Source of the DNA: Asparagopsis taxiformis
Lineage: Eukaryota; Rhodophyta; Florideophyceae; Bonnemaisoniales; Bonnemaisoniaceae
Length of the DNA: 64,000 nucleotides
Reading direction: 5' to 3'
Assembly: GCA_030407315.1 (NCBI GenBank)
Contig: JALQPE010000844.1
Location: 1 to 64,000 of the forward strand
The translations under genes were made by a program, and so were the position numbers. Below, in pieces: positions 1,287 to 33,942 of this stretch (its first letter is position 1; each line of letters starts with the position of its first letter). A model generated the notes under the pieces. The model worked only from the letters and a program-made list of their open reading frames with translations. It was not told where the DNA came from and made no database searches.

Positions 1287-1310
1287 TATCGATCTTAGGA
1301 CATATGTCAG

Positions 1311-5284: not shown

Positions 5285-5285
5285 C

Positions 5286-5303: not shown

Positions 5304-5387
5304 TTGCTACGAGCATAACGACAACCAACGAGGTTGAGCTCTTTTACGTTAACGAAAAGCTACGTGCTACGCTACAGACGACGGTCT

Positions 5388-11011: not shown

Positions 11012-11030
11012 GGAACGTACACAAATCGTT

Positions 11031-14821: not shown

Positions 14822-15485
14822 TGTAGTATACGTGGCAATTCCGAAATTGCAAATATTTACGTTTTTCCGCGGAATTCGAATCTCGGCGGACACGACCGGC
14901 GACAGCAATGCACGAACATTGCTGGCGCATGCGCGCGCGCAACCGGCACACGTGTGCAACGAACGTACTGGCAACGGCCAACGGACCAACGGGTCCCTAC
15001 GTGTGACCCACAAGGTCCTTTCCCATTCGGGGACGTTACGAACAGTGTTTACACTGTAAAGCGATGCCATCGTGGCCATATAGGTATTGGCATCGTGCCG
15101 GGAGGGAAAGGGGACAAGACAACGATCGAGCAACGGCTCTAGTCTACGACTGACTTCTACGTTTACGTTTACGTTTGGCCTAACGAGGCTTCGTCTCCGT
15201 CGAGCTGCGTACTCCCTACCCATCGCCGCACGTAAGGCTGATTGCGTGTAGTGCCTCCGGGCTTGGTCGAGAGCGCCTCCGGTGACGTACCACCTCGTGT
15301 GCTAACGTAATCCTCGCGTGGATTGTTGCGTCGTGACGCTCGTGTCTACTCGCTAACCACTCTACCTTCTACCGTTCTAACAATACAGTCAAACACCAGC
15401 GGGTGGACTGCTCGTTTCGTTTCGTAAGGACAGCGTGTCCACTGGCTCGTACCAGCTACTACGTCTAACGAACTATCGTTCCACA
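14822..15485 (+). repeat. 3' LTR of element B
   Basis: Same 664-bp sequence as 4621-5284, preceded by a G-rich polypurine tract and followed by GGGTC. Confidence 0.95.
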
Positions 15486-15490
15486 GGGTC
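15486..15490. repeat. Target-site duplication of B, right copy (GGGTC)
   Basis: Second copy of the 5-bp duplication. Without B and one copy of these bases, the A integrase frame reads straight across the junction (..RRWGS to VATDF..). Confidence 0.93.
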
Positions 15491-16592
15491 TGTGGCAACC
15501 GATTTTATAGTCGCCCTACCGAAAACTGCCAAGGGGTATGACGCTATCACTACTTGGGTTGACCGACTGTCTCGTAGAGTGCATTTTATTCCCTGTAGAA
15601 CTACGGACACCGCGATGGATACCGCGGAGGGGTTCTTCCAGCATGTCTTTAAGCTCCACGGGATCCCGGACTCCATCGTTTCCGACCGTGATGCAAAGTT
15701 TACGTCAAAATTCTGGAAACATCTCATGGCGCTCTGCGGTGTTACTCTCCAGATGTCCTCCACGCACCACCCGCAGACGGACGGGACCTCCGAGATCATG
15801 AACCGGCTCATCGAGAACTACATTTGATGTTACTGCGGATACCGCCAGAATGATTGGGACGATATGCTCCCTGCAGCCGAGTTCGCATACAACTCTGCTG
15901 TTAGTGACGAGCTCCAGGCGTCACCATTTGAAGTAGATCTAGGGTGGGTACCTAAATCTCCACTAGCGCAGCTAGGATCAGTGCGCGAGACCCCGATTGC
16001 CAGCGTCAACGAATTGAAGGGCAGGTTGGCTGCAGCACTGAATGACGCTCGATTCGCTCATCAGGTCTCTAAAGCAAAGAATGCCGCATACGCGTCACAA
16101 CGTATGAAGGAACCCTCTTACCGCGTTGGGGACCAGGTATGGCTTAACCGATCAATATTCAAGGATGCTATATCCAAGGTGCAAACCTCGGATAAGCTGG
16201 GATCGCGGCGCTTCGGACCGTTCACAATTACCGAGAAGCTGGGAAAGAATGCCGTTCGGCTCGATTTACCTCGAAATATTCGTCTACACCCTGTCGTACA
16301 CGTATCACATACGGTTCCCTATCTTTCCCAGCCTCCGGAAATTTCCCGCCCCGTACCAGTACGTCCGAACCCGGTCTCTGATGTGGATGGAGACGATCTT
16401 TACGCGGTGGATCGCATTATTTCGCACCGCAAGCGTGGGAGAGGATACCAGTGGTTGACCCTCATGAAAGGGTCCCCGCAACATGAAGCAGAGTGGCAAC
16501 CGACACGTGACTTCGTTGACGCCGACGGAACCCTGACTTCCGCCTTCCATGCATACATCGTTCAGCATGGATTGCTCCCAGATCTCCACTAG
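15486..16592 (+). pseudogene. Element A pol, 3' part (integrase core, C-terminal domain, chromo-like end)
   Basis: This continues the integrase cut by B. The core motifs are DFIVALPKT, SDRDAKFTSKFW and a TDGTSEIMNR segment that holds the catalytic Glu. A stop (TGA near 15827) breaks the frame soon after. The second piece (15864-16592) carries the C-terminal tether (SYRVGDQVWLN, LGSRRFGPF) and a degenerate chromodomain-like end (DLYAVDRIISHRK .. EAEWQPTRDFV). A polypurine stretch (GGGAGGGG, 16621-16628) follows before the 3' LTR. Confidence 0.85.
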
Positions 16593-16634
16593 CGGCTATT
16601 GACGCGGCCGTCAATAACCTGGGAGGGGCAATGG

Positions 16635-16910
16635 TGAAACAGTGTTACTCGAGCACGACAAGTATGATACGCAATGTCATACCCAAGATGGAAGATCAGT
16701 AGCAATTTGGCGCCAAAGGGCAGTACACAACGTCGATGGCACTGCCCGTATTTTAACCGTAACTCTACGGGCAGGAACTAGAGGCTCGCCGGATCCCTCA
16801 CGACGGGCTATTTAGGAGGGGCACCCCAGCGGCCGGCGAACGGAAAAAGGGCGGGCATGCAAGAGGGGACTCGAGAAGAAGGCGAGAGTAAAGGACGACA
16901 GTTTGTTACA
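16635..16910 (+). repeat. 3' LTR of element A
   Basis: 276-bp partner of 991-1267; starts TGAAACAGTG, ends TTGTTACA, followed by GAATA. Confidence 0.93.
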
Positions 16911-16915: not shown

Positions 16916-17484
16916 CCCCTTAAACCACCAGAGGAAACGCTTATTTCAACCTAGTCGATTCTGCTTCGAACTCTGTTACAGACTGGGGGTCTCCGTGAAC
17001 GAAATTTGCTAATTTGTCTCAATTTTAGTTCCCTTTGCCCTATCGCGCCGCTCCTGTTCCTCACTTCAAGGTGTCTTGTATACCACTGATGAATCTACAA
17101 TACGTGGAGCTACAACAGTTGCTGTGGACATGGGGGTCACGCACAATCTAAATATTGTAGTTTGTTTGGGTCCGAAGCGGCACCACATGTAGTTGGTTTC
17201 ACGATGTGTGCTAAACCTATTCATACGCAAGTCTGGTTTGACTTTTGTGGTTCTGCGAGATGTAGGGATATATCCTGCGATTCTCCTATATTTTCAAACA
17301 TGACGTGAAATAAAGGAAGAGTGAATGTAATGGCTATGCTTTGAACTTTTAATCTATAGAAGGGATTTAAGTCGGCGAACTCATTTTATCAACGCATATA
17401 AAAGATTGTTCTTTCGGCGATATCACACTAAGGATCCGAACACTATCGCTTAGAGGAGACGAAGATTTGGTCTCTCGATTCAAC
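16916..17484 (+). promoter_or_regulatory. Host upstream region and displaced promoter of the interrupted secreted-protein gene
   Basis: Single-copy DNA between A and C. A good TATA box (CATATAAAAG) sits at 17395-17404, about 81 bases before the original ATG at 17485, the spacing also seen at the VWA genes of this window. No other gene is visible. Because element C now separates this promoter from the gene body by 15.8 kb, it probably no longer drives the full gene. Confidence 0.65.
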
Positions 17485-17501
17485 ATGGCCTTCAACTACT
17501 C
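17485..17501 (+). pseudogene. First codons of the host secreted-protein gene, cut off by element C
   Basis: ATG GCC TTC AAC TAC TC runs straight into the left end of C. The sequence right of C, after one shared ACTC, continues G TTT CGA CTG TTT GCA, giving MAFNYS-FRLFAV in one frame. This is therefore the original 5' end of the gene whose body lies at 33320-33942. Start codon, context and signal-peptide logic all agree. Confidence 0.85.
17498..17501. repeat. Target-site duplication of C, left copy (ACTC)
   Basis: Four bases shared with 33320-33323. Five bases would be more usual for this class, but the fifth does not match. Confidence 0.75.
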
Positions 17502-17829
17502 TGTAGTTAATCGTGGTTTGAGTTTTTGTTGAGGTGGTTTTTTCCTGCCTCCTTTACTTCTACTCTCTGCTACCTGCGTTTAAATACACTCGATATCTCC
17601 CTAGCTATGTTTTCTGTTTCATTGACTATGTCCAATTCCCAGCGATAAACAGCTTGCGCCGCCAAAGTTTCCTAGTTAGCCAGTCAAAAAGAAAAGGTCT
17701 TCCATTAATTGGGTAGCATTTGGCTGCGCCAAACGGAGTCTTGAGAGGAAATACAGGAAAGATGATAATGGGCATAATAGAACCGAATTTGGATCTCCAT
17801 TTGAATCGCATTATTTGGAATGCGTGACA
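17502..17829 (-). repeat. 3' LTR of element C
   Basis: 328 bp on the + strand from TGTAGTTAAT to TGCGTGACA. It matches 32991-33319 with about three substitutions and one indel. A minus-strand polypurine tract (AAAAAGAAGGGGC, 17830-17842) adjoins it. Confidence 0.93.
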
Positions 17830-17851
17830 GCCCCTTCTTTTTGAAGAGCCA

Positions 17852-20567
17852 CTAAGCATTTCGAGCAGCTCTGACCAGATCTTGGTCTGAATAGCTGTCT
17901 AGAAACCTGTCCAGCAACACTGGAATATCCTCGCGCATGATGTCCATTGGCTCCCATGTAGGCTCCTCGTGGTCAAATCCACGCCACTTGCAGCAAACTT
18001 CATAGCGTCCAATTGCTTCGTTGAAGCGTAATCCTAGTATCTTAGTGACGGTTTCGTAGTGCGGGCTATTGTGGCCAATAGAATCCAATAAATCTTGAGT
18101 GACGTCCAGCGATGAATCAGCATAGAACTTGAGTCTATTGCAATGAATTGTGTGTAGTTTCTTAGATATCATATCTTCCACCTCGTAGGTGTAATCTGAT
18201 AATGCCCTTGTGATTCTCTGCGGCCCTGTCCATTTGACTCGCAACTTATCTCCATGTTGAGATACAACCTTAGCTACCAATACGAAATCCCCGACATCAA
18301 AGTTGACATCTTGTACATTAGTTTTTTCGTTGTGAGCTTTGATTGAACGTTCCCTATTTCTTGTTCTGCTTGCTGCAACACTTTTGTGAAACTCCTCTAA
18401 TGATTGTTGGAGTGACTGCACATTGCATATCTTCTGTGCTTTGACGAAAGATATGCTCTTGGTTTTTGTAGCACGTGGCTTGAGCATCGTTCGCAATGGA
18501 TTGTCTGCAGGAAGCTGTGTCATTATTGTTATCGGCGCAAGGTTAGCTAGTCCAGTGCGAGGTGTGTGGTTAATTATGCTTTGAACAAGTGGTAGCACAG
18601 ATGGCCAATCCTTTTCGCGCATGCGAAACTCAGAGAGAAGAGCTCTCGTTGCCCTTAAGACTTGTTTGCATATAGCCTCAACTGTTCCGTTGGCTTGTGG
18701 AGTGTATGGAGTTGTAAAATGATGCTGCGCATGTAATGAACGGTTGAGTGCATTCATCAATGTATTTTTGAAATGCGGACCGCGATCTGAGTTCCATGAC
18801 AGGACGACACCAAATGTTGTAAACCACTTGAGCAATGTTTGACATGTTGTCAGCGCATCAGCATTCTTGCAAGGTTCAAGCCAGCTGTACATGGAAGCGT
18901 CATCCATAACTATAAGCACGTAGCTGTAACCATCTCTGCTGTCCCCCATGTATAAAAAATCAAAATGAATAAGCTCGTTCGGTTTGTCTGCATGTAGTGC
19001 ATGCCCCATTGGCCTTGCTACCTTCTCTCCGCCAATCGTGGATAAGCAATGCAAGCAAGAATTGCAGAACGCCTTGATGTCCGCCTCAATTGTATTCCAT
19101 ACACAGTAAGACTTGATTGCAAATGTAGTTGCAGCGACTCCTCGATGTCCGCCACGTCCGCAATGACCCACAATGCATATGCGCATTTGCAATTGGATGG
19201 AATTAGAAGGTATCCAGATTGTCCCAGATTCCGAACGTATTAATCCATCTTTAAGACATCCCATGGGTTCCTCCCCTTCGTCTAATGCCTCACGCTGCGC
19301 AGTGTAAATTTCCTCGTCACTGGGCCAGGTAAATTCCGGATCTAAGTCGGGGGCGACAGGTGCGCGAAATAATGCAGAAAGTTGCACAGATTGACCTTCA
19401 TGCAGGGGCTTACTGCCCCAGCGCGAGAGGAGGTCTGCCCAAACATTATCATCTCCAGCAACATGAGAAATAGTGTAGCGAAAAGCAGAAAGTTTCAAAG
19501 CCCAACGCTCAACCTTATTGGCTACATGCTTAGTGATGCCTGGTTTCGTCGAGTAGGGATCGAAAATAAATGTGAGGTTCTTGTGATCTGTGAATATGTT
19601 GAATCCTCTTGGTCGCATGAGAAGGTAGTCTAGGCGTGTGACAGAAGACACAATGGCATATGCTTCTTTCTCAATTGTAGACCATCGGCTACTAGCACCT
19701 CTGAATGAGCCAGATAGAAACGCAAGAGGCTCATGATGCTGTTCAGCAAATTGTATATCCACCTCATTGGGTGGCACTTGTGTTAAAATCCCTGCCCAAT
19801 GCTCTTCGGATGCATCTGTAAACAACTGGAAAGCCTTAGAATCATCTGGATGTGCTAGCATCACGGAATTTGCTAGTGCATTGCGCACAGCCCCAAACGT
19901 TTCCTGGTGTTCGTCCGTCCACAACTGTGAATGCAGTTGGAATTGGGATGCTGCTCTCCGGGTACGAGCTCCGACGGCTTCATAGACCTTTTCCAATACG
20001 CGAACAAGAGGAGCAACAAGCTGTGTGAATTGTGGAATGACACTGCGCATCCAATTGGCTGCACAGATGAACTGCTGTAAATCAGCTCCAGTCACAGGCG
20101 TTTGTAATTGAAGGAGACTTTGAAGTCTGCTGGGATCCATTGTTATGCCACCACTGGATATAATTCGTCCACACCATTTAACCTCCGAAAGGAATAGGCG
20201 ACACTTAGTAGCATGAAGCTTGATTCGTTTTTTCCTGCATATTGTAAACAGTAATCGAAGCTTTAGAATGAGTAAGTGTGCAGACTTTGCGTACAATAGT
20301 AAATCATCCAGCCATTGTATGATGTCATTCTTCATCACTCCTAGAAGCTGCTGTAGCGTACTCTGAAAGAAGGCTGCAGCATTTGTTTGGCCCTGCAACA
20401 CCCTGGTTGGAGTGTAAACACCATCACAAGTGATAAAGCTTTGGCATTCCTGTGAATCCTTATCAAGAGCAAGCTGAAAGTAGCCATGACATAGATCAAT
20501 TATAGCATAGCATTTCGTACCAGCTAATTGGGCCGTTGCTGATTCAATGTTCGGCATCGGCCAACAG
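17852..20567 (-). CDS. Element C pol, downstream part: RT, RNase H, integrase, chromodomain
   Basis: The frame enters from the D junction at 20567. RT shows IIDLCHGYFQLAL and a catalytic WLDD (IQWLDDLLLYA), with Trp where Tyr or Phe is usual. RNase H has LFTDASEEHWAG and FTDHKNLTFIF. The integrase zinc finger (HCGRGGHRG .. CNSCLHC) is followed by the D-D-E core: HFDFLYMG, NSDRGPHFKN, ANGTVEAICK. The tether FDVGDFVLVAK and a clear chromodomain (ETVTKILGLRF .. CCKWRGFDHEEPTWEPM) close the protein at 17852. The whole frame is open with no stops. RT makes the DNA copy and integrase inserts it; the chromodomain presumably guides it to marked chromatin. Confidence 0.92.
20563..20567. repeat. Target-site duplication of D, left copy (AACAG)
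   Basis: AACAG before the left LTR of D, repeated at 30791-30795. Confidence 0.93.
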
Positions 20568-21252
20568 TGTAGCAGGTAGAAAATCCGCTAGAGCGGCAAA
20601 CCACCCGACAGGTGTCCCGAGCCTCGGTAGAGGAAGTGGTAGAGCAGATGAACCTTATAGGTACCCAGCGGGTAGTCTCGTAAGAGAGAAGGTGTCGTTA
20701 CCCGGAGGGGGTTGTGCGACGAAGGGGTGCTCACGCGAGAGGCGTATGGATAGAGCGAGTGACGTAATCCGTCGAGCTGTTGGCTAACCCTAAGGTTTTC
20801 CCGGAGAGGGGTTGAACAATAGGTATGCGAACACTGTTCCAATGGGTCGTAATTCCACTTGAGTTTACGTTACTCTAGAAACCGTGCCTACTGGCTATTC
20901 CAGTGGCCGTTTTATACTAAGTCTACTGTAAGCTAGGGTTAGTGGTTAGGAATAAATATCCAGTTAGTGACCAATCAGAACCCAATTATTGGCGCTCGCC
21001 TACCCGCGAGGTCATTGCCAATAGGCTTACATTGTAATGTATGGCTGATCAGCCTAAGTTAAAACTTGCCCCCTTGTGGGGTCTTGGCCGGGGCCGATAG
21101 GCCCGGGTGGGGTTATTTGTCAGCCATAGCTGGTCCTAAGTATAGGAAACACGCCAGTTGGCTGGTGCCTTCTGATTGGCACATCCCGTAAGTGGGTACC
21201 CAATAGGGAAGCGACACGGCTCGATCAGCGAGGACCGCCAGGCGGTACGACA
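20568..21252 (-). repeat. 3' LTR of element D
   Basis: 685 bp on the + strand from TGTAGCAGGT to GGTACGACA, same as 30106-30790. On the minus strand it is preceded by a polypurine tract (CAGGAGGGGGCC; + strand 21254-21265). Confidence 0.95.
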
Positions 21253-21751
21253 CGGCCCCCTCCTGAGAGATTTGTCGTCCCGACAAAATTTGATCAAATA
21301 AAATTACAATTTTTGGCTGTGGCCGTTGCATTGTGCAATTCAAAATTTTCCCGCGCGCGGCGCGTGCACACTAAATGTGTTGTCCATCCGACTCTTCCCG
21401 AGTTCCGCCCGACCGTTTCCTATTGGAATCAATACCTGTTTCAGGTCCATCATCGCCCTAACGCAACACAGCGTATTCACCCCTTCGGTGTCCAACTGCG
21501 TCCACGCATTCGCGTCCTTTCCATTATCCCTCAAAGGGTTTTTGCGTCCATCTGCTAAATAATTAGCCGCGTGATCGCACGAGCGGTGCCAATTCGAGGC
21601 TTGCATTCGCCGTTTCGGCCCATTGCCTCGCGATCCCCTTCCTGGGTTGAATAGCGCAGCTCCCTCCCGGAGACTTAAGCCAATAGGCCACTTGTTCGTC
21701 CCGCTTCAGGGTTTTTATCAACGTCCGTCATCGCCTCTACTGGCTTTTAGG

Positions 21752-22570
21752 ATGACCCCTCGTGCTCCGATTCAATTCGAATCCTCTGAAGAGGAAGGAG
21801 ACAATATGGGTTCGCCCAACCGTCCTACCACACGCTCCAGCGTTCGCCGTCCCACGACTCGCCACCAGGCTTCCTCCTCCCGCACCGGGGTTCCGCCTAC
21901 ACCGGCTAAGTCTTCGTCGACTTCAGCGCCACGCGTGCCGTCAGCCACCGCGGCTCAATCGCAAACGCGAACGCGTTCGACTACCGCCAAAGGCCCCGCT
22001 GATCCAGCGTCGCCTGCTGGCAAGGTTGTGAATACACAAGCACGTTCCGAAGAGACGGTCCCCCCTACCAGGGCAAGCGCACAAGAGCGCGACTCTGTTC
22101 CGGCTGAATCGCCTGCTTCCCCGAAGCCTTCCACCCCAGTGGCTAGTGTCAAACCGTCATCGGTTAATCCGCCGTCACGCGAAGGTGAGTCATCGAAGGC
22201 CGCCGGCCCGTCCCCAAAGGGAGCTATGCCGGCCGACACCGAGGAGGTGATAGAAGTCGTCGCCGAGGAAGGCGCTACGCCCAGGCCAACAAGGCAACCG
22301 AACGTCAGGCCTTCGCCCAGTTCGCGTCCGATTACTTCTCGTCCTTCCGCCCCTACGGCTCGTACCTCTTCTGGTCGTGACGCTTCAGCGAATCCCTATG
22401 AGGACTATGGTCGCCGCAACCAGCAGATACTGGCGGACGCTCGAAAGCGTAGAGAAGAAGAGTTGCGCCGCGAGGCTGCTCGAGCAGAAGCCGAGAAGGC
22501 AGCAGCCGAAAAGCTGATCCTGTTCCCGTCTTGGGAGACGTTCAACAACGTTCGAAAGCCAGAGCCTTGA
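21752..22570 (+). CDS. Antisense accessory reading frame in element D
   Basis: A 272-aa frame on the strand opposite to gag-pol, between the chromodomain and the 3' LTR. It starts at ATG 21752 and is open further upstream without ATG. The protein begins with an acidic patch (ESSEEEGD). It continues with a long basic Ser/Thr/Pro/Ala-rich disordered stretch and ends in a charged heptad segment (RKRREEELRREAARAEAEKA) likely to be a coiled coil. I recognise no family. Codon-like composition and length speak for a real gene, and antisense extra genes are known in some plant LTR elements, but no homology was tested. It may be a DNA- or RNA-binding accessory protein; that is a guess. Confidence 0.55.
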   Translation: MTPRAPIQFESSEEEGDNMGSPNRPTTRSSVRRPTTRHQASSSRTGVPPTPAKSSSTSAPRVPSATAAQSQTRTRSTTAKGPADPASPAGKVVNTQARSEETVPPTRASAQERDSVPAESPASPKPSTPVASVKPSSVNPPSREGESSKAAGPSPKGAMPADTEEVIEVVAEEGATPRPTRQPNVRPSPSSRPITSRPSAPTARTSSGRDASANPYEDYGRRNQQILADARKRREEELRREAARAEAEKAAAEKLILFPSWETFNNVRKPEP

Positions 22571-22599
22571 TACTTGTGCGTACTAGAGATAAATAACAA

Positions 22600-22722
22600 A
22601 TTGGTCCGACTGGTCCAATACATGGCCCGACTGGTCCAAAGTGAGGTCCACATGGTCCAGGAGTGGTCCACTTGGACCCTATAAGTGGTCCAGATGGGTT
22701 CGGAATGGTCCGCCTGGTCCTT
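22600..22722. repeat. Degenerate GGTCC-rich short tandem repeat
   Basis: About ten GGTCC words (mostly TGGTCC, some AGGTCC) at 8-20 base spacing follow the stop of the antisense frame. They may be a regulatory array or simple-sequence expansion. Confidence 0.75.
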
Positions 22723-22842
22723 GGTTCGACGCCGGCGGCGTTGCATACGAGATCTGATGCCAGCGATGCTATTGATCCAAGGAGTGCATTGCACTCGATT
22801 TGACCAACGCAGCACAGAGCTACCGCCGCCGTCGGGGCTCGA

Positions 22843-22976
22843 GAAAATCAAAATTTTAGAATTTCTGGCCTTCGGCCTCTCGGCAATTTTTGGCCGCCGG
22901 CGGCCAAATAAAATTTTTGAATTTCCGGCCGGTATCGGCTGATCAAAAAATTGCAATTTTTGGCCTCCGGCCAGCG
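22843..22976. repeat. Cluster of GGCC-cored palindromes separated by AT-rich tracts
   Basis: GGCCTTCGGCC, GGCCGCCGGCGGCC and GGCCTCCGGCC each form a perfect or near-perfect hairpin and are interspersed with AAAATTTT-type stretches. The segment is noncoding and lies inside D between the antisense frame and the chromodomain. Confidence 0.65.
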
Positions 22977-23057
22977 CTGATATAGCGCGCCCTTTTGGCC
23001 TAGCCTCATGAGAGTGCTCTACTCATCGTAACTCCACCTCGTGGACTTGCTATCTCA

Positions 23058-23795
23058 TTAGCTTTTCGTCCCTGCGGGGTTGTGCGGCTTCTTCCCACTT
23101 CTGGGTGCGCGCGTGCGCGTTCGGCGCGGTGGCCTGTCACCCTTACGGTGTTGCGTTTGACGGAAGTACCGTGATGCCCATTCGGGGGGAACGTTCGTTC
23201 GTTGCGTCCAAGTTGGCTTGCGGTAGCCATACCATTTTACCAAGAACCATTGTTCGCCGTCGTCGTCAGTGACGTAATCGATGAGATCATCGATGGGATA
23301 TTCCTCCTCTGAGGTTGCGCGTTCGGCGTCGCTACGTCCCTCTGGGGTTTCCTTCGTCCCTTCAGGGAGAGCTACTCGTTCCGAGTTCGGCTGCGTGCCC
23401 TGTGGCGCTTTCTCTTGTTCCCCATTGGGGGTGGTTTCCAAAGACCTTACGGGGTTTGCCGTGGCTATCTTCTTCTTCGCGCTTGAGCGAGTGTGTCGAC
23501 CCGGTTTGGGTTTTGCCAAATGGGCGGGTGCTTGACTTGCTTGGTTCGCTATGCGAAGTTCGGCTCCCGATGGAGGGTTCGCGTCCCGTTGAGGGGAAGT
23601 CGGCGTTTGTACGCGTGCTTTGATTGAGCGTCGCCTGGTCGCGTTTGCGTTGGTCAAATGCCTTGGGGCTGAGTCTGTGGCGTCGGTGCCTGCCATACTT
23701 TGGCGAGTTGCTCGCTTGTGCGACGGATGAGCCCTATCAGGGTTGGGACCTTGTTGTTGATCTGCATCGGCAGTGCTGGCGTCTCTTCTTCGCAA
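23058..23795 (-). CDS. Element D integrase tail with chromodomain, in a shifted frame
   Basis: A basic Pro/Ala/Thr-rich linker leads to a chromodomain (YPIDDLIDYVTDDDGEQ, WFLVKWYGYRKPTWTQR) at about 23165-23310. The domain reads FLVKWYGYRKPTW like that of B. The frame differs from the integrase frame ending at 23819 and is open across that stop, so a one-base step upstream (somewhere in about 23.8-24.0 kb) has detached the chromodomain. No ATG is needed if this is the end of pol. Confidence 0.8.
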   Translation of the reverse strand: MRRRDASTADADQQQGPNPDRAHPSHKRATRQSMAGTDATDSAPRHLTNANATRRRSIKARVQTPTSPQRDANPPSGAELRIANQASQAPAHLAKPKPGRHTRSSAKKKIATANPVRSLETTPNGEQEKAPQGTQPNSERVALPEGTKETPEGRSDAERATSEEEYPIDDLIDYVTDDDGEQWFLVKWYGYRKPTWTQRTNVPPEWASRYFRQTQHRKGDRPPRRTRTRAPRSGKKPHNPAGTKS

Positions 23796-23818
23796 TTGTG
23801 TGCGATTATAGCCGGTTG

Positions 23819-26514
23819 TTACCGGGGTGCGGGTTGTTGGTGTAATGGTAAACGACTTTGGTCGTACGTGTCGCTCCCAATCGTGGGTGAGTTACCAGGT
23901 GGTGAATGTTGAGTATGCTCATCCCAAGAGGGTGTTGCGAAATTGTTGCTTACGCGCATAGCGTCTGGGGCCCCCTCCTGAAGGGTGGTTTGTCCCAAAC
24001 CACTACCTTCAGGTGTTATCCTAATTGTAGGTTGTCGTGGAGACGATGGTTGATCCCTGAAGGGGTATTCCTGATTAGGAGTTGGTGAAGGTGATTTGTT
24101 TGGCGCGTGTTGTTGGCCGTTGCCCTGTGGTTGTTGTGTTTGCGTATTTGGCGCGAGGGCCTCTGCACCTGATGGTGATGCTTGTGCGTTGGCGTAATGT
24201 GGCCTCGGTGGCAAGGTGGGTTCCTCGGTTGGACGCGGGGCGAGCGCAACTCTATCGAGACTAACCTTTTCGGTGATACCATCGCGGTCGATGTAAACCG
24301 TTCGCCGTCCGGCACGGACAACCCTATAGGGACCTTGAGCTATTGGTGTTAGCTTGTTCCGTTCACGGACTTCTGGATTGTCCAGGTAGACATAATCATC
24401 GGTAGTGATGAGTCGTTTAGACTTCCGGATCGACCGGTCGAAGTTACGCTTGTAGCGTGCTTGCGCGCTGTGAAGGCGTTTACCTGCCATATCAATGGTA
24501 TCCGTAATACGGCGTAAGAAGTCTTGCTTCGTGAACGCGTCTGGCGTTGCCCTCCTTTTCACCGAATGGTGTGTTGCATATGGCGGTGGGGGTCGGCTTA
24601 GGATGAGGTCGAAGGGTGTAGTTCCCGTTGTGCGATGCACGTGCGTATTGTACGCATAGGTTAACGCTGATGCGTAGACATCCCAGTCGTCCTGGTTATC
24701 ATTGACGTAATTACGTAGCATGCTCAATAGAGTACGGTTATACCGTTCGACTTGCCCATTTGTCTGGGGATGGTATGCCGTCGTGAAGACGTTCTTCGTT
24801 CCTAACTGGAGGCAGACGGCCTGGAAGAACTTTGACGCAAATTGCGGACCGTTATCGGATAATAATGTCCGTGGGGGACCGTACTTAAACACCCAATGTG
24901 TACAAAAGGCTACTGCCACATGGTAAGCCGTGATGCTTCGCAGCGGAACCACTTGGGTTAGCTTGGTAAAGCGACACGATATCACCAGTAGGTGCACGTT
25001 ACCCTTCTTGGTACGAGGTAGAGGACCGAGGAGGTCAATAGCAACATCGTCTAGTGGTGTAGTGGCTGGGAACAGCTGAAGGGTACTCGCATGTTTGCGC
25101 AACCGTAACCGGTTTCTCGCGCACGCTGAACAGCGTTCAACCGTTCCGGTTGTGTCCGCAGCCATTGCAGGCCAGTAATAAGATAGGCGCATCGTGTCGT
25201 ACATGCGGTTCTGACCAGGATGTCCTGCCAAGATGCCGTGGTGGCACATCGTCAATAGACGTTGCCGTAAGGCTTTGGGTACCACAATCTGGGATGACCC
25301 GTCCAATTTGGACTTCCTACAAAGGACACCGTCTTCGTCTTCGAAGAAGAGAGAGTCAGATTTCTGCGAGGCCAGGGCCTGTTGACAGAAGTCGTCTGTT
25401 CGTTGCTCTTCGAGCCACTCTTGGAGAGTTATCGGGCAGTAGTTTTCCGTTTGCGGATGAGTTGTTAAGACGGGTGTACCGTTGCGATTAGGCGCCTCCT
25501 CGGCGTGGTCTCTTGCTAGAGAAAGGTCGTAGAACCAAACATCAGTGTCATCATCCAGGGATGTTTCACCTTGCGGTGCGTGCGTGGCCAACAGAGTTGG
25601 TATTTCATCGTCAATAGTGACGGGCGTCTCGCCGTTAGTTTCAACACGCGAAAGGGCGTCTGGTAGTTGGTGAACCCGGCCGGGTCGGTAGACTATTTGA
25701 TAGTCAAACTCCGCAAGTCGGAGGCGCCAACGGCATAGTCTCCCTGAAGGGTCATTGATATTCATGAGCCAACGCAGCGCGTTATGGTCCGTCCGGACTA
25801 CAAACTTTGTTTGCTCCAAGTATGGACGTAGGGTAGTGACAGCCCATACGACGGCTAGACATTCACGCTCCGTAGGGGAGTAACCTCTTTCAGGTTTAGT
25901 CAAGGTCCGCGACCAATAGCCAATTGGCTTGAGATCGTTCTCTTCCCCTTGCTGCTGAAGCAGAGCGCATCCTATTTGGTATGCGGAAGCGTCCGTATCC
26001 ACGGTATAGGGTTGACCCAACTTGGGTAGAGCCAGTATCGGCGGCTTGGTCATGACCTCCTTGAGAGCGTTGAACGCGCGGCGTTGGTCCTCGGTAGGAG
26101 GTTCTTTCCCGAATTTAGGGAGGCTGTCTTTGGTCAGCATTTCGTTCAAGGGGTGCGCAATTGCGGCATACCCTTTGATGAATCGTCGAAAGACGCCACA
26201 GCTTCCGAGGAAGGATCGCATTTGCGTAGGCGTTTGCGGAAAGATCGCGTCAGCGATAGCCGAAGTGGCGTTCTGTGCAACAGCTAGCTTCCCTGGCATC
26301 ACGACATGTCCCAGGTAATCAACCTTCTTTTCGAAGAAATGACACTTTGTCAACTTCAGGGTGACACCTGCTTTCCGTAGGAGGGAGAGTACTTGGTCCA
26401 CATGGTGGAGATGTTCGGCCTCGTCCCGAGAGAATACGATCACATCGTCTAAGTAAATCAGACAGGTCTGCCAGCGAACGCTGCTAAGAATAATGTCGAT
26501 GGCACGCTGAAACG
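23819..26514 (-). CDS. Element D RT (from YLDD), RNase H and integrase core
   Basis: The frame resumes after the one-base loss near 26514 and reads through the RT catalytic YLDD (about 26450), thumb (HHVDQVLSLLRKAGVTLKLTK) and RNase H (VDTDASAYQIG, ATERECLAVVWA-like, VRTDHNALRWLM). The integrase follows, with H-H-C-C (CHHGILAGHPGQ .. CSACARNR) and triad AIDLLGPL, SDNGPQFASKFF, NGQVERYN. A long Pro/Gln-rich tail precedes the stop. The first ATG of this frame is at 26443, downstream of YLDD, so RT could not be made from it alone. Confidence 0.9.
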
Positions 26515-28104
26515 TGCCGGAGCATTCTTTAAGCCAAAAGGCAAACGCTTGAAGCGATATGTCCCCAAGTGGGAGGTAAATGCCGTTTTGTCACGGTCGT
26601 CCTGTGCAACAGGGATCTGCCAATAGCCAGAATTACAATCCAATGTGGTGAATACTTGAGCATCTCCGAGGGAGTCAATACAATCATCCATTCGTGGAAG
26701 GGGGTACACATCATTGACAGTGATGTCGTTAAGACCCCTATAGTCGACGCAAAAGCGTAATTTACCATCCTTCTTCGGGACAAGAACCACTGGGCTAGCC
26801 CATTCGGAGGTCGACGGTTCGATCACTCCTTTTTCCAGCATGCTGGTTATTTCCTTACGGGCAATCTCTCGACGAGCGGGTCCCATACGGTAGGGTTGTT
26901 GCCGTCTAGGCTTGCTCCCTTCGACTATGTCGATTCGGTGTTCCGTAGCGCGGATGTCCCCTAGGGATCCATCCCACATAGACTCGTGTCGAGATAGCAT
27001 GCTAAGGATGCGTTCCCTCAACGGGATTTGACCAAGGTGGTCTAGAGAGACTTCTTGCTTCCAACTTGATGGTTGGGTGGCCTCGGCCTCTTGCTCCTGA
27101 TGGAGAGTAGTCACCATAGTGGAGGCCTCTTGGGAGGAAGGGGTAGAATGGCTGAGAGCCACGGGGCGCATTGGCCGTTCGGGTGCCCGAAGGGCATAGC
27201 CTATAATTGTCCCTTTAGGGAGGTACTTGTCGGATGTACCGAAGTTAGTTAATATAGTCAGGAATTCCTGTCGCGGGATGACTTCCGCAACCCCATTCGG
27301 GATAGAGACACGATGTCGGTGAAGGATCCGATCTCTCAGTGAGAGTATACTCAAGCCGCCCCCGGCACATACAACAGTAGTTGTTACTTGACTCCGCGGA
27401 GGAACATTCACACTTTGTGACAATCGAATGCCATGAGGCTGGCGGTCTAAGTTAATCCCATTAGAGGGTCTTGAGGCATCCACGTAGCACGAAAGGGTGG
27501 GGGATGTTTTACGCGTAGGCGACATCACTAGGATAGCTATCGACCCGCCGTCGTGAATATCAATTCGTTGGGCCCGGCACCTAATAGCGTCTACGTGGGT
27601 ATTCATTGCCCCAGTTCCCAAGATGAGGGGTACGGCCAACTTAGGCGCGACGAAGAATTCTTCCTCAAAGGACTTGTGGCCTAACTGTAAGGACAGTATT
27701 ATCTTGCCTTTTATCCGAAGAGGATTGCCGTTAGCATCGGCCAGTTGCGGAACTTTCCCCGTAGGGACTTGGAATTGTTCCCAATTTTGGGGTAAGCTCC
27801 TTTCATGGATGACCGATGGTCCGGACCCAGTGTCCATCACCATACGCATGGGCGTGAGAATTGGCGGATCGAGTCCGATGGAACCCATTACTACGTAATG
27901 GGCGGCCTTAAGCAGGCATGAGGCTTTCGGCCTTGAGGTTCGAGTCCCTGTGGGGGAACCCGAAGGGGTTGGTGTCTGGGAAAGACTTTGGTCCCTAGAG
28001 GGAGTTGCAGCCTTTTCCTGCGGAGGTGGTTGTGGTGAGATGTCCACCGAGTAGCGTAATCGCTCCACCTCCTGACGGGAGTGCGACACCTCACTCCCCG
28101 TCAT
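26458..28104 (-). CDS. Element D protease and N-terminal RT
   Basis: The ATG overlaps the gag stop (TAATG at the 28104 junction), which suggests termination-coupled reinitiation rather than frameshifting. The protease has a canonical MDTGSGPSV and VPLILGTGAMN. RT begins with EWASPVVLVPKKDGKLRFCVDYRG, continues FTTLDCNSGYWQIPV and reaches GLKNAPA. There the frame is lost: compared with element B (NAPATFQR), one A is missing near 26514, and the frame ends 18 codons later. Confidence 0.9.
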   Translation of the reverse strand: MTGSEVSHSRQEVERLRYSVDISPQPPPQEKAATPSRDQSLSQTPTPSGSPTGTRTSRPKASCLLKAAHYVVMGSIGLDPPILTPMRMVMDTGSGPSVIHERSLPQNWEQFQVPTGKVPQLADANGNPLRIKGKIILSLQLGHKSFEEEFFVAPKLAVPLILGTGAMNTHVDAIRCRAQRIDIHDGGSIAILVMSPTRKTSPTLSCYVDASRPSNGINLDRQPHGIRLSQSVNVPPRSQVTTTVVCAGGGLSILSLRDRILHRHRVSIPNGVAEVIPRQEFLTILTNFGTSDKYLPKGTIIGYALRAPERPMRPVALSHSTPSSQEASTMVTTLHQEQEAEATQPSSWKQEVSLDHLGQIPLRERILSMLSRHESMWDGSLGDIRATEHRIDIVEGSKPRRQQPYRMGPARREIARKEITSMLEKGVIEPSTSEWASPVVLVPKKDGKLRFCVDYRGLNDITVNDVYPLPRMDDCIDSLGDAQVFTTLDCNSGYWQIPVAQDDRDKTAFTSHLGTYRFKRLPFGLKNAPARFSVPSTLFLAAFAGRPV

Positions 28105-30029
28105 TAATTTTCCGACGACGTGTCGGAGTCGTCGGTAGTGTCTAGGGCGTCGGCAACGTCTTGAGCCGTTACGGAAGATCCGTTACGTTCTAAAACGTCT
28201 CGCCTCAGAGGGCCCAATTTGGGATGATTTTCGTCATCGGCGAACGCAACCATGCGTGTTGGAGGGTTTGACCGTCGGAGCACGGCTTTAGGGTAATCCC
28301 TTTTTCGGTTGAACCGATTGGACTGGCGCTGTTGGCGGCGCATAACCTGCTCCGGTTCCTGCTGGTAAGCGTAGTTCGCAAAGGCGAAGTAAGTTCCCAC
28401 TGAGGGCGGTAAATAAGGACAAGTGTATAACACGTGCCCTGGTTGGCGACAGCCAGAGCATCTCCAAGTAACAGCCCCTTCGGGGATCATACTCTCAGCG
28501 AGTTTAAGATGTTCTCCCATTAGGGTAGGGGCCTGCATTGGCGCGCCCATTGGGTTCCCGGTAGGGGAAGGTAAGGTCGGCGGCGGGGTCCGCGGTATCA
28601 CGGCCGGTTCTCCGGGTATGGTAGCGAGCAACGCTTTGCGCTTGCGTTCCGCGATTTCCCGAGTAGGGTAAGCCTTCGGCTTTGCGGGTAGCGAAGCTCT
28701 TAAAGAGTCCCCGAGTCCTTTAGCAAGGTTACGGACAGCAAGGAAATCTTCTCCGCCACTGCGGCCTATAGTCACCTTGACGGTGTGTTTAACCTCTGGG
28801 CGTAGGCCCTTGAGGTAGTAGTTGACCAAGTCTCTTTCCGAGAAGACGTTCGCACACAGGAGAGCAGCGTCCTGCAGTCTGTCTGCGTATGCAGCTTCAT
28901 CTTCATCCGGCCCTTGCCGTATACGCGTTACTGCGTCATATGCGTCCGCTAGGACATTGTCCGTTGCGTAGCGAGCCAGAAGGGCGTTAACGGCTTGAGG
29001 CCAAGTGATCTGCTGATGCAGATGGTTGAGAAGCTTGCGCTTTCGCGCCTCAGCGGCGATAAACCGTTGAGGTTCTCCTTCCAGGAAATACTTGAGTAAC
29101 TTGGTAGCTTCTCCCTCCGAGACTCCGCATGAATCACATGCATCTTGAAATTCCGCGAGGAACCGGAGGATATCGATGGGTTCCGTACCATCGAACGGCG
29201 TGAATGACGCGTTGAAATTACGGATCTTCTCCGTTAGCTTATACAAGCTTCTTGATTTACCCATTGGGGTATCAGTCGTTAGGGACTTGTTCTTGAGTCG
29301 GTAGTACCGATAGGAGACCACTAGGTCGAACGCGGGTTCGCGGGCCTTCAAAGGCACTAAGCCTTCCTCAAGAGGTCCTTCTTCATCATCCCACGAGGGA
29401 TTTTCCGGTATAGATCCGGTGGCACGAGTGTGCTGTCTCGTGCGAGAGATATTCCCTGTTTGGGATAGTGATTCGGCGAGGGCGTCGACACGGTCCGACA
29501 GGTGTCGGGTTGCTTCTGCGACTTGATCCAATCGGGGATCTTCTTCTTCCTCCCTACCGGATGTAGGGTCAGGGAAGTCAGCCGATCGGATGCGGCGAGC
29601 AGGAAACTCCTGTTGTCCTAATGGACTGGCATTAAAGCCGTGAATCGAAAGCTCCTCCAGACGAGTTTCCAAAAGGGACACGCGTTTAGCGAATTCGGCT
29701 TTGACCTGATTCCAGGTTTCCGCTAGGAACTCGGCGTCCCGATCTTGGGTGGCTTCTCGGCTGGCGGCCATCAGCTTTGGCTCGACCAGTTCCATGACGG
29801 TTTCGACCGTAGCGTCTACAATTTCCGCCCTGCGGTCTTGAACAGTCTTCTCGACGACGGTGCTGAATTCAGCCTTGAACTCTTCCAACCGTTCGTTGAA
29901 GATTCGGTCCGCTCGGTCTTGCAGGGTGTTAATCACCACGCCTTCTTCGGCGATCAGATCCGAATCGGATAAGTCGCTGGCAGGCGCTATGTCCTCACTA
30001 GAGGGTCCCGCTGTAGGGTTACGAGGCAT
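28104..30029 (-). CDS. Element D gag
   Basis: The start is ATG 30029 (MPRNPTAGPS), 58 bases after the primer site. The N-terminal third is acidic with helical segments and a coiled coil near residues 115-135 (RVSLLETRLEELS). The capsid domain spans about residues 230-430 (FTPFDGTEPIDILRFLAEF, LKYFLEGEPQRF, YADRLQDAALLCANVFSE). A CCHC knuckle, C-x2-C-x4-H-x4-C (CSGCRQPGHVLYTC), lies near residue 540, with a basic stretch behind it. The frame is intact. It is colinear with the broken B gag, which is why I read the B pieces as one gene. Confidence 0.92.
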   Translation of the reverse strand: MPRNPTAGPSSEDIAPASDLSDSDLIAEEGVVINTLQDRADRIFNERLEEFKAEFSTVVEKTVQDRRAEIVDATVETVMELVEPKLMAASREATQDRDAEFLAETWNQVKAEFAKRVSLLETRLEELSIHGFNASPLGQQEFPARRIRSADFPDPTSGREEEEDPRLDQVAEATRHLSDRVDALAESLSQTGNISRTRQHTRATGSIPENPSWDDEEGPLEEGLVPLKAREPAFDLVVSYRYYRLKNKSLTTDTPMGKSRSLYKLTEKIRNFNASFTPFDGTEPIDILRFLAEFQDACDSCGVSEGEATKLLKYFLEGEPQRFIAAEARKRKLLNHLHQQITWPQAVNALLARYATDNVLADAYDAVTRIRQGPDEDEAAYADRLQDAALLCANVFSERDLVNYYLKGLRPEVKHTVKVTIGRSGGEDFLAVRNLAKGLGDSLRASLPAKPKAYPTREIAERKRKALLATIPGEPAVIPRTPPPTLPSPTGNPMGAPMQAPTLMGEHLKLAESMIPEGAVTWRCSGCRQPGHVLYTCPYLPPSVGTYFAFANYAYQQEPEQVMRRQQRQSNRFNRKRDYPKAVLRRSNPPTRMVAFADDENHPKLGPLRRDVLERNGSSVTAQDVADALDTTDDSDTSSEN

Positions 30030-30086
30030 CGTGAAGATGATGTGAAGGAAAATTTCTCTCAAAGAGACTTACCCGAGGGTACAAGG

Positions 30087-30104
30087 TTCTAGGTCGAGAG
30101 ACCA
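30087..30104 (-). promoter_or_regulatory. Primer binding site of element D
   Basis: On the minus strand TGGTCTCTCGACCTAGAA begins one base inside the 5' LTR. It is close to the site of element B. Confidence 0.7.
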
Positions 30105-30105
30105 A

Positions 30106-30790
30106 TGTAGCAGGTAGAAAATCCGCTAGAGCGGCAAACCACCCGACAGGTGTCCCGAGCCTCGGTAGAGGAAGTGGTAGAGCAGATGAACCTTATAGGT
30201 ACCCAGCGGGTAGTCTCGTAAGAGAGAAGGTGTCGTTACCCGGAGGGGGTTGTGCGACGAAGGGGTGCTCACGCGAGAGGCGTATGGATAGAGCGAGTGA
30301 CGTAATCCGTCGAGCTGTTGGCTAACCCTAAGGTTTTCCCGGAGAGGGGTTGAACAATAGGTATGCGAACACTGTTCCAATGGGTCGTAATTCCACTTGA
30401 GTTTACGTTACTCTAGAAACCGTGCCTACTGGCTATTCCAGTGGCCGTTTTATACTAAGTCTACTGTAAGCTAGGGTTAGTGGTTAGGAATAAATATCCA
30501 GTTAGTGACCAATCAGAACCCAATTATTGGCGCTCGCCTACCCGCGAGGTCATTGCCAATAGGCTTACATTGTAATGTATGGCTGATCAGCCTAAGTTAA
30601 AACTTGCCCCCTTGTGGGGTCTTGGCCGGGGCCGATAGGCCCGGGTGGGGTTATTTGTCAGCCATAGCTGGTCCTAAGTATAGGAAACACGCCAGTTGGC
30701 TGGTGCCTTCTGATTGGCACATCCCGTAAGTGGGTACCCAATAGGGAAGCGACACGGCTCGATCAGCGAGGACCGCCAGGCGGTACGACA
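30106..30790 (-). repeat. 5' LTR of element D
   Basis: 685-bp partner of 20568-21252, no difference noticed; followed by AACAG. Confidence 0.95.
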
Positions 30791-30795
30791 AACAG
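30791..30795. repeat. Target-site duplication of D, right copy (AACAG)
   Basis: Second copy. Collapsing the two copies rejoins the element C frame within the RT domain (QTVPHC-WPMPNI). Confidence 0.93.
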
Positions 30796-32939
30796 TGTGG
30801 GACAGTCTGCATGTTAACGGGACGAAGGTCGACAGTAAAACGAAATCCTTCTGGACCAGACTTGGGGACAATGAGTGGAGCGCAAGCCCATGCACTCTCA
30901 TTATTAGATTTGACGATACCGAGCCGTATGAATTCATCAATCTTGCTACGCATAAATTCCTGTTGTTGCGGGGTATACCGACGTACTTTGACACGAACTG
31001 GCTTTGCATCATCTTTCAAACGGATCTTCATAGGGGGCGCTCTGATTGGCGGATCCGTTCCCAGCTTTGTTCGGAATATGTCTGCAAATTCGAACAATAG
31101 AGTGCTGAATTCTTGAACATAGTCCTGTGGTAATCCTTCCCTTACAGCATTGTCAATCATGGCTTGCATATTCGCTTGAACTTCTTCAACACTCTCTTCA
31201 CCAATAATATCTTCTAGCGTTTCGAGTGCAATGCCATCGTCATATAAAGCGTCTGCGGTAATTGCAGTGTGCATACTTTCCGTACTTTTATCACCTTGCA
31301 AATCTTTGGGTCCAATAGTGAGTTCGTCTGCATCTAGGTGCAGTGGCATCTCTGTGACATTTGCCTCATTTGGATATGTCTGTCCGAGAATCATTGCCAA
31401 GTTAGTTGTATGGGGCGGAGCATGACTGTCTGTAAGTCTCTGGGAACGACATTCGAAGCCGACATCTGAGAAGTCTGTGTCGTGGTATATATTACGTACG
31501 GACACAATGTGGGCGTGCAGGTTGAATCCTAGTGACTGCAGTACAGGGCGTGATATAAGAACTTCAGGCATGTTATGATCAAAGACTAGGAATTCCAAAT
31601 TGCGTAGTCGAAACGGGCCCTCAGATGTCATGAGTGTTGTTGACAGTCTTGCCTTTTTGTGTGCATATATCCTTGTGGTGTCACCAGATGTGTCAATAGC
31701 CAATGATACCGGTACTGGATTGGACAATGGGAGCACTGATACAAATACTCCCTGCTCCGCGCATTTGTCAAGGTGATTCTGGCTTAATGCAGAGTGATCT
31801 GCTCCATAATCACCGTTGACGATTACACTCACAGTGTCAGCCAGTTTTGCAAAGTACCTGCCAGTTCCCTGTAATGCTTCACGAACTTCGGAATCATGAT
31901 TATGTGACAAAGAGTTGAGTCTTCCGGATTTAGATCGCTCCGCATAATATTCCTTCAGAAACTTTTCCTTCTCCTTGCTGCTAGTTCTAGGACAATCCCT
32001 TATCATATGCCTTCCATTGCACTTTTCCTTATTGAGGCATAAAGGTAACTGCTTCTTGGATGCATCCTGGCTCTTATCTTCACCTGCAGCAGCTGCGATA
32101 TTCTTGATACTAGCCGTGCTTACCGTATTTGAACGTTTTGGTAGCGAACAGGGAGATGCAGATAGTGTTGGGGTGTTACGATTAGTTCTAGCTGGAATGC
32201 AAGCGGCTGAGCTATGAAATGATGTATTTTTCAAGGCCTCAGAAGTATTCGCAATCTCTCCAGCTATTATTTCACCTCTCTGTTGATCCACTGATGCGGA
32301 TCGGACAGGGATGAAGGGGTTACATTGTACAGCTTGCTCAACCACATACTGGTAGAACGAAAGCCAATCAGTTTTCAATGCAGTCTTACACAGGCTCAGA
32401 TCTGCCAGTATCTTACCCTGCAACTCTGCAGGCTTCAGGAGAGCGCATATGTGTGTAGTAGCCACCTGTGGGTTGATTGTTATTAGTGTATCCCAGTGCC
32501 TGCTTCTGAGAAACTTTTTGTATTCCATGAACAGGTTCTTTATACGAAGCTCTGGGTCATCCTCGTATATATTGATTTGCACGTTCGCTATGACAGCCTG
32601 TTCCAAATCATGGGGTGTGATGGAGTCGAGAGAGATGGCAGTCTTCTCTTCCAACCATTTCTTTAGAACGTCCTCATTAAGCTCTTCCACTGTATTGACG
32701 TCTTTGAATTCCTTGAACTCAACGAGAGACAGCAGCAGGTCGGGGTCGAATGAAGATTTGAGTGAGATAGCAGTAGCTACTCCACCTTGCGCATCAATGT
32801 CGCTAATGCGCTGTAGGTACCGTTGACGTGCTTTCACGAATTCGTCAATGGCTTTTCGACCAAGCTGTCGCAACTCCGGGTGTGTGATAGGGGTGAAAAG
32901 TTGTTGCCCTGTGTGGTGACAGCTGTTTGTAGGTGTCAT
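30796..32939 (-). CDS. Element C gag-like region, protease and start of RT
   Basis: The best start is ATG 32939 (MTPTNSCHHTG), only about 50 bases inside the 5' LTR. The first half is a helical gag-like domain. A Cys/His cluster (CLNKEKCNGRHMIRDCP, near 32020) resembles a zinc knuckle. A retropepsin-like domain follows with VNGDYGADHSAL in the place of the usual D-S/T-G and a partner VLISRPVLQSLGF. RT starts with IRAPPMKIRLKD, WACAPLIVPKSG and FRFTVDLRPVN, then hits element D at 30795. The frame continues without loss at 20567. The protein is a single gag-pol polyprotein, unlike the split layout of B and D. Confidence 0.88.
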
Positions 32940-32990
32940 TTTTGGGCAAAGAAAACTCAGTAAGCCACAATTGGCTTCACTAGTGATCAC

Positions 32991-33319
32991 TGTAGTTAAT
33001 CGTGGTTTGAGTTTTTGTTGAGGTGGTTTTTTTCTGCCTCCTTTACTTCTACTCTCTGCTACCTGCGTTTAAATACACTCGATATCTCCCTAGCTATGTT
33101 TTCTGTTTCATTGACTATGTCCAATTCCCAGCGATAAACAGCTTGCACCGCCAAGGTTTCCTAGTTAGCCAGTCAAAAAGAAAAGGTCTTCCATTAATTG
33201 GGTAGCATTTGGCTGCGCCAAACGGAGTCTTGAGAGGAAATACAGGAAAGATGATAATGGGCATAATAGAACCGAATTTGGGATCTCCATTTGAATCGCA
33301 TTATTTGGAATGCGTGACA
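32991..33319 (-). repeat. 5' LTR of element C
   Basis: 329-bp partner of 17502-17829. Read on the + strand its last bases are GGAATGCGTGACA, so an antisense ATG lies 10 bases from the element border. Confidence 0.93.
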
Positions 33320-33942
33320 ACTCGTTTCGACTGTTTGCAGTCATCATTTTTCTGACCACATGTCTTTCCAGTGTTGTGAAGGACAAGGAAAATTCCTCGG
33401 AAAATATCACAAACGAACGTCTCGTGGCCGATTGCCCCAATCATTGCAAGCTTTTCGCTGGTCTAGCAGAATCGGAATGTTCATTATTTCCAAGATGTGC
33501 TATTACGAGATGTTTTACTGAAAGGGTTTTCTGTGATCCAGATCGTTTAAATGTCTGTGCTCCTCTGACCATCTATGGCTTCAGCTGCTCAGAACCTAAA
33601 TCCGGATCCGGGACCCAAGACGATCCCGATATTGTGACACCTATTCCAGAACCTCCTCCAGTGGCTCCAGAAGTTTCTCCAGATAGCCCAACGCCTCCGG
33701 TGAGTCCACAAATGAATATAGAGAATATTATTATTAACGGGGGGACGTTCAACATCTTTACAAGTACACCCCCACCGACGACCATGGGCTCTGTGACTAG
33801 TTCGGGAACAACTACCACAGCAATGACTGGGACTACAATGACCACAACTACAAGTACTACAACGACGACTACAACGACGACTACCACAGCGACAAGTACT
33901 ACAACGACGACTACAACGTCGACTACCACAACGACTACATGA
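33310..33942 (+). CDS. Secreted Cys-rich, Thr-tailed protein; start codon supplied by the C LTR
   Basis: 210 aa. Residues 1-4 (MRDN) come from the LTR and target duplication; from residue 5 (SFRLFAVIIFLTTCLSS) the host signal peptide continues, so export to the cell surface or wall is predicted. Residues 45-105 hold about nine cysteines (CPNHC, ESECSLFPRC, TRCF, VFCD, VCAP, FSC) and look disulfide-rich. A Pro-rich linker (PEPPPVAPEVSP) leads to a Thr-only mucin-like tail encoded by ACN repeats, a likely O-glycosylation region. I recognise no family. An in-frame TGA at 33292 makes 33310 the first possible ATG. Before insertion of C the gene began at 17485. Whether it is still expressed is unknown. 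Confidence 0.75.
   Translation: MRDNSFRLFAVIIFLTTCLSSVVKDKENSSENITNERLVADCPNHCKLFAGLAESECSLFPRCAITRCFTERVFCDPDRLNVCAPLTIYGFSCSEPKSGSGTQDDPDIVTPIPEPPPVAPEVSPDSPTPPVSPQMNIENIIINGGTFNIFTSTPPPTTMGSVTSSGTTTTAMTGTTMTTTTSTTTTTTTTTTTATSTTTTTTTSTTTTTT
33320..33323. repeat. Target-site duplication of C, right copy (ACTC)
   Basis: Matches 17498-17501. With one copy removed, the host reading frame is restored. Confidence 0.75.
33828..33941 (+). repeat. ACN trinucleotide repeat encoding a poly-Thr tail
   Basis: Repeats of ACTACAACGACG-type units with occasional AGT or GCG codons. It is coding in the + frame; the complementary frame reads poly-Val and is an artefact. Confidence 0.85.

Follow-up and report, generated by a model that had tools for sequence, protein, structure and literature searches.

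An LTR retrotransposon insertion in codon 6 of a secreted-type protein gene of Asparagopsis taxiformis, and the in-frame ATG at its LTR end

In apes, an Alu element broke the IRGM open reading frame (ORF), which was reopened by a new start codon just 3' of that element; an ERV9/LTR12 promoter lies upstream, as described in the available extract of PMC11853044. An isoform of IL-33 is driven by an intronic long terminal repeat (LTR) whose TATA box lies 35 bp upstream of the mapped major start site (extract of PMC5513427), and at viable yellow agouti the LTR of an inserted intracisternal A-particle (IAP) element is a documented promoter (extract of PMC7061989). Here we describe a locus of the red alga Asparagopsis taxiformis in which an LTR retrotransposon, element C, interrupts codon 6 of a gene for a secreted-type protein, and in which the LTR end places an ATG in frame with the remaining codons. 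The locus lies in a window of 64,000 nucleotides (positions 1 to 64,000 of contig JALQPE010000844.1, hereafter C844, 72,013 bp), part of an assembly of 141.5 Mb in 3156 contigs. The genome gives thirteen phycobilisome-linker matches, where among 14 control genomes Synechococcus elongatus alone gives any; for one of these proteins the best named matches are from Agarophyton (68%), Chondrus (67%) and Gracilariopsis (66%), other matches reaching 75%, which fits a florideophyte red alga. The original prediction was that the gene had taken a start codon, perhaps also a promoter, from the LTR read antisense. We favour instead a recent gene-breaking insertion of element C, with the in-frame ATG a one-in-three lucky by-product and the interrupted copy most likely null, and we put the probability of this reading at about 0.85.

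The insertion point, as read in the sequence, falls after the second base of host codon 6. To its left stands the beheaded 5' end of the gene (17485..17501, plus strand), comprising the ATG at 17485, codons 1-5 and two bases of codon 6, which translates as MAFNYSVVNRGLSFC and then reaches a stop on running into the LTR. The host TATA box, TATAAAAG (17397..17404, plus strand), is 88 nt upstream of this native ATG; the original prediction had the ATG right and had the TATA box at 17395, which we correct to 17397. The box is now severed from the gene body and lies 15.9 kb upstream of the hybrid ATG at 33310. Element C is flanked by the target-site duplication ACTC, with a left copy at 17498..17501 and a right copy at 33320..33323 (plus strand), and is bounded by a 3' LTR of 328 nt (17502..17829) and a 5' LTR of 329 nt (32991..33319), both on the minus strand. 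The LTRs begin with TG and end with CA; over 328 nt, 3 substitutions and a single indel separate the two.

A second contig, C840, carries the uninterrupted arrangement. It aligns to positions 33317-72013 of C844 (38.8 kb, 98.7%), and directly adjoining this match are positions 16911-17501, followed by 842-990. Element C and a neighbouring LTR element, element A, are both missing from C840 in the contig alignment, which provides the empty site for C. Since C840 joins both flanks without the elements, 17485 and 33320 were formerly contiguous, and the order on C840 rules out that they never were. The original prediction had proposed a genome search for an uninterrupted copy; it is present on C840 as a gene of 221 codons, one open frame from ATG to stop, with the 221-aa product MAFNYSFRLFAVILFLTTCLSSVVKDKEN.... 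Searched against the genome at the DNA level, the gene body gave five matches, two of full cover (C844 and C840) and three to the Thr-rich tail alone. The LTR pair, the ACTC duplication and the C840 empty site bear out the predicted retrotransposon at codon 6; these marks of insertion and the reading frame are direct observations, and the insertion itself is certainly beyond chance. A fragmented assembly and a repeat element would be the setting for an artefactual junction, yet clean TG...CA ends together with a 4-bp duplication, and an empty site to match, are marks of integration rather than of a misjoin; given the duplication and the empty site, we set an assembly artefact aside as extremely unlikely.

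C840 and C844 are probably two haplotypes, because two other locus pairs in the assembly are also near-identical (L059/L060 at 99.7%, L072/L073 at 99.97%; no alignment was obtained for L046/L047, the third pair compared). This status is not certain because the substitution profile is uneven: per kb window, C844 and C840 differ by 1.5-9% over 33-38 kb and by 0-0.2% over 39-72 kb. The step in divergence is sharp and falls in or near the 38-kb window, positions 33300-38200 being the divergent part; gene conversion, a recombined haplotype or sequence shared in the assembly graph are candidate causes. The same unevenness would fit recent duplicates rather than alleles, with the insertion having broken a redundant duplicate, as would a related locus (the C399 type) found on four contigs, two with and two without an insertion. 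The other near-identical loci on two contigs each are what unmerged haplotypes would give, and we regard the duplicates as a minority possibility, albeit a serious one, that is compatible with the favoured explanation. Loci on four contigs rather than two were seen twice (C399/C356 with C468/C832, and C2434/C2435/C2581/C2582), so the assembly is not simply diploid.

The product of the host gene, predicted from sequence, is a secreted-type Cys-rich protein with a signal-peptide core, a Cys-rich head and a Thr-rich tail. Paralogues on C1863, C519, C426 and C2314 have a similar signal-peptide-like core and a common Cys-rich head, and their low-complexity tails differ strongly (Thr, Ala-Pro, Gly-Thr-Asp-Gly-Thr-Asn, Ser-Pro-Ala). 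Across the wider set of family loci (L062-L071, on C840, C1863, C519, C426, C2314, C831 and C902) the head is likewise kept while the repeat units of the tail are wholly different, being built of Thr, Ala-Pro, Gly-Thr-Asp, Gly-Asp-Ser-Ser-Thr or Ser-Pro-Ala. A TATA-like match stands upstream of the ATG in five of the seven members whose start was located (C840 at -88, L064 at -95, L065 at -98, L066 at -105, L067 at -100); L068 and L070, which lack it, are copies broken by stops. A Pfam scan of the host gene found no family, and no homologue outside this genome was found at E <= 0.001 among 4033 candidates. As the database includes red-alga proteins, the gene looks lineage-specific at that search sensitivity.

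Element C has the predicted make-up of a Ty3/gypsy-type LTR retrotransposon with a chromodomain. Its pol part (17852..20587, minus strand; 911 codons stop-to-stop) encodes reverse transcriptase (RT), RNase H, integrase and a chromodomain, placed by Pfam in the order RVT_1 15-141, RNase H 248-369, rve 534-630 and Chromo 847-897. Copia elements carry integrase first, unlike this RT - RNase H - integrase order. The 5' coding part (30651..33068, minus strand; 805 codons stop-to-stop) has no Pfam match, and a purine run, AAAAAGAAGGGGC, adjoins the 3' LTR at 17829. In domain order and TG...CA LTRs element C agrees with other chromodomain Ty3/gypsy elements, the chromoviruses, and its family makes 4-5 bp duplications; apart from the first ORF without a Pfam match, nothing notable sets it apart. 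The LTR family shows an exact target duplication of 4 or 5 bp at 10 of the 11 distinct sites for which both flanks were read (13 entries in all); the eleventh, on C603, has a 5-bp duplication with one mismatch. Nested inside element C at 20565..30402 (approximate ends) is a second LTR element, whose terminal repeats extend over at least 300 nt at 100% identity.

On the favoured explanation, such an element would have landed recently in codon 6, on one of two haplotypes or near-identical copies. The interrupted copy would most likely be null because the insertion separates the gene body from its TATA box, its native ATG and codons 1-5.

The right-hand side of the insertion nevertheless reads as an open hybrid. 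The last ten bases of the LTR, ATGCGTGACA (33310..33319, plus strand), encode M-R-D-(N) in frame, and together with ACTCG give M-R-D-N-S in the host frame. The resulting hybrid ORF (33310..33942, plus strand) is 210 aa long, with signal-peptide core, Cys-rich head and Thr-rich tail (protein MRDNSFRLFAVIIFLTTCLSSVV...), and is preceded by an in-frame TGA at 33292..33294. Judged by Kyte-Doolittle hydropathy in 11-residue windows, the maximum mean is 2.66 in the hybrid vs 2.60 in the intact copy, with a net charge of +1 ahead of the hydrophobic core in both. The donated in-frame ATG, the stop just upstream of it and the kept signal-peptide core, all anticipated by the original prediction, therefore stand as DNA features.

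An open frame of this kind is unsurprising without selection because the insertion is young. Judged from the divergence between the two LTRs, the ORF should have gained about 3 substitutions since insertion, for which 0.055 nonsense changes are expected, and the probability of neither a nonsense change nor an indel is 0.40-0.71 for two assumed indel rates. The hybrid and intact copies differ by 13 substitutions in the ORF, 9 replacement and 4 silent; the resulting pN/pS of 0.76 (Fisher P 0.75) rests on too few changes, and these are not polarised. With such counts the test is without power, and selection on the hybrid ORF was set aside as a reading.

Whether the LTR start is used is a separate matter. 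The reading in which it is used would have the 5' LTR (32991..33319) act as an antisense or bidirectional promoter, with ATG 33310 giving a secreted protein in which MAFNY is replaced by MRDN. The ATG, the stop before it, and the kept core and charge all speak for this, as do mammalian LTR promoters acting on nearby genes, including antisense or bidirectional ones, in the available extracts of PMC11853044 and PMC7061989. The leader of such a transcript argues the other way. Ahead of the hybrid ATG lie two others that are out of its frame, 33251 and 33257, both of which have A at -3; the upstream ORF that they open (uORF; 33251..33355, plus strand) overlaps the hybrid ATG. Under the scanning rule for start-codon choice, a ribosome starting at either would be unable to restart at 33310 because their frame passes 33310 and runs to 33355. 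The overlapping out-of-frame uORF is a feature of the family, being present in the last 75 bases of all 31 LTR termini found in loci L008-L037. Nor does the LTR offer a nearby TATA-like match towards the gene: the single one on its plus strand, TTTAAA at 33068, is 242 nt ahead of ATG 33310, and is part of TATTTAAA on the other strand, which is the likely core promoter of the element itself and would face away from the gene. Transcription of element C itself must run opposite to the host gene.

Several observations weigh against the favoured explanation. ATG 33310 has G at -3, a tolerable context; a transcription start within 33258-33309 would escape both upstream ATGs; and the missing TATA-like match leaves room for another type of promoter. 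No stop interrupts the hybrid, and the two lengths by which it departs from the intact copy, 18 and 12 nt, are multiples of three, as would also be expected of a selected frame, a point tempered by the tail itself being a repeat of three-base words. Set against these are the uORF, the distance of the only TATA-like match, the want of visible constraint on the hybrid, and the intact copy, whose presence makes rescue of the broken one unnecessary. Elsewhere, moreover, the same LTR ATG yields peptides without a signal-peptide-like core. Among the papers that literature searches listed, none was a red-alga case of an LTR start codon. We consider start-codon capture possible, with more against it than for it, and an active LTR-started secreted protein improbable: the in-frame ATG of the original prediction exists, and its use as a start, or of the LTR as a promoter, is not supported. 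If the LTR start were used, the locus would be a natural two-copy experiment, with native and LTR starts for the same gene in the same cell, and would bear on how a mobile element can, in a single event, exchange a gene's promoter, leader and first codons.

The native signals left of the element, with TATA box, ATG and codons 1-5 intact, admit a different rescue, in which read-through from the native promoter at 17397 is followed by splicing out of the 15.8-kb insert to give a near-native protein. A possible cryptic acceptor, CAG at 33338-33340, was seen by eye. There is no AG within 33295-33323, however, so an acceptor past the in-frame stop lies inside the gene and costs residues; the insert is long and contains two elements; and, the intact copy having a single open frame, there is no sign of splicing in the host gene. 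We regard this rescue as very improbable, and intron-like removal of the insert was set aside for want of an AG between 33295 and 33323. We infer that no functional protein is made from the hybrid.

The favoured explanation treats the ATG as a by-product of the element's own architecture: the integrase-constrained terminus reads ATGCGTGACA antisense, placing one sense insertion in three in frame. In the genome this terminus occurs as 68 exact and 8 one-mismatch matches, the only classes searched for, and the ATG is kept in 73 of the 76; the control pattern, read backwards, gave 1 match. Because integrase requires unchanging LTR termini, nothing more is needed to explain a start codon at such a place. 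As the terminus is common to the family, the chance of an in-frame ATG is one in three for each sense insertion into coding sequence.

The frames at other insertions fit this expectation less comfortably. Flanks were taken from 30 LTR loci (L008-L037) of 40 scored matches, giving 14 distinct outer right flanks, with L019, a fifteenth flank of 2 bases, left out. At all four sense insertions into supported ORFs (C844, C399/C356, C2744 and C2434) the LTR ATG is in frame, which counts against a lucky frame (chance 1.2%; 3.7% for three of three without the window case). Support for the ORF comes from C840 and the paralogues at C844. At C399/C356 it comes from uninterrupted 177-codon frames on C468/C832, with a 100% match over 59 residues; here, at C399:12948-13276 (L023) and C356:69946, a copy of the LTR family sits in a related Cys-rich gene. 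C2744 (L009/L010) is a cupin-like gene in which Cupin_1 scores 23.6 bits on the left (cut-off 22) and 19.9 bits, under the cut-off, on the right, and which seems to carry a frameshift upstream of the element as well. C2434 (L026/L018) has a spanning frame of 477 codons, Cys- and Pro-rich, with a right flank common to three more contigs. The hybrids at C399/C356, C2744 and C2434 have no signal-peptide-like core, their maximum 11-residue hydropathy being 0.35, 1.39 and 0.34.

The count depends on which sites enter it. C752/C105 holds a frame that begins in a signal-peptide-like manner (282 codons on C752, at least 241 on C105) and to which the element is antisense, and a 248-codon sense frame that spans the site is out of frame with the LTR ATG. 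We judged the latter a shadow of the opposite-strand frame and left the site out because the signal-peptide-like frame runs on the other strand; with C752 counted, the tally is 4/5 (P 0.045, or 4.5%). Also left out, having no independent support, were short frames of 60-124 aa that span the site at C2608, C2481, C603, C2349, C1997 and C2352/C1725. Among the sense frames at these dropped sites the longest is in frame at C2608, is not at C2481, C1997 and C2352, and ties at C1725, with none listed at C603 and C2349; C1624 has no spanning frame of 60 aa. In 7 of the 14 right flanks the longest open frame is that of the LTR ATG (binomial P 0.149), and a permutation on log length gives P 0.040, or 0.072 without the window case. 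At C399 the longest frame differs from the gene frame, which makes length an unreliable indicator, and we do not find this test convincing.

The four-of-four pattern is curious, yet it comes from a small, post hoc set; what it does show is that a lucky frame is no rarity in this LTR family. An LTR family with a portable start codon would be a bolder account, in which codon-phase-preferring integration or loss of out-of-frame insertions puts the ATG in frame at all four sites, genes are often left readable from the LTR end and the window copy even stays secreted. We hold that account to be distinctly improbable.

Other features of the window lie apart from the broken gene. Element A (991..16910) is flanked by the duplication GAATA at 986-990 and 16911-16915, contains an additional repeat pair (4594-4893 and 14795-15094), and is separated from the native ATG by 574 bases. 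Three related secreted proteins (CNPNVCF.xDGGRFV...) are encoded at 38322-39146, 39852-40631 and 43660-44517, two on the minus and one on the plus strand; they presumably resemble von Willebrand A domains, and the one of the three that was scanned had no Pfam match. A 1415-codon frame on the minus strand at 50872-55119 combines NB-ARC, WD40 repeats and, at its C terminus, a TIR domain, so that its layout in this red alga is NLR-like. A Mutator-like DNA transposon at 55375-59826, with 376-bp inverted repeats (99% complementary) around a frame with a MULE transposase domain, is followed at 60969-62276 by another frame, which matches an Ulp1-like C48 peptidase weakly but above the cut-off.

Among the described systems, IRGM in apes, as far as the available extract goes, is the closest documented real capture that we met. 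There, as here, a mobile element breaks an ORF and an ATG at the junction reopens it; the IRGM LTR is reported as a functional promoter in that extract of PMC11853044, whereas in the window the LTR ATG is a predicted start and an intact copy persists. The IL-33 isoform, as the extract describes it, shares with our locus the position of an LTR close to the 5' part of the gene, along with several ATGs in frame; its LTR is intronic with a TATA box at 35 bp, while the LTR in the window sits inside codon 6 with a TATA-like match only at -242. Viable yellow agouti, again within the limits of the extract, is likewise a gene with an LTR at its 5' end that may serve as promoter, and there the LTR is documented to do so. 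The agouti IAP is antisense to the gene, and the agouti coding sequence is not known to be interrupted. Beside these, the Asparagopsis locus is a clean, recent break of a secreted-protein gene by an LTR element, in one of two copies and with its empty site known.

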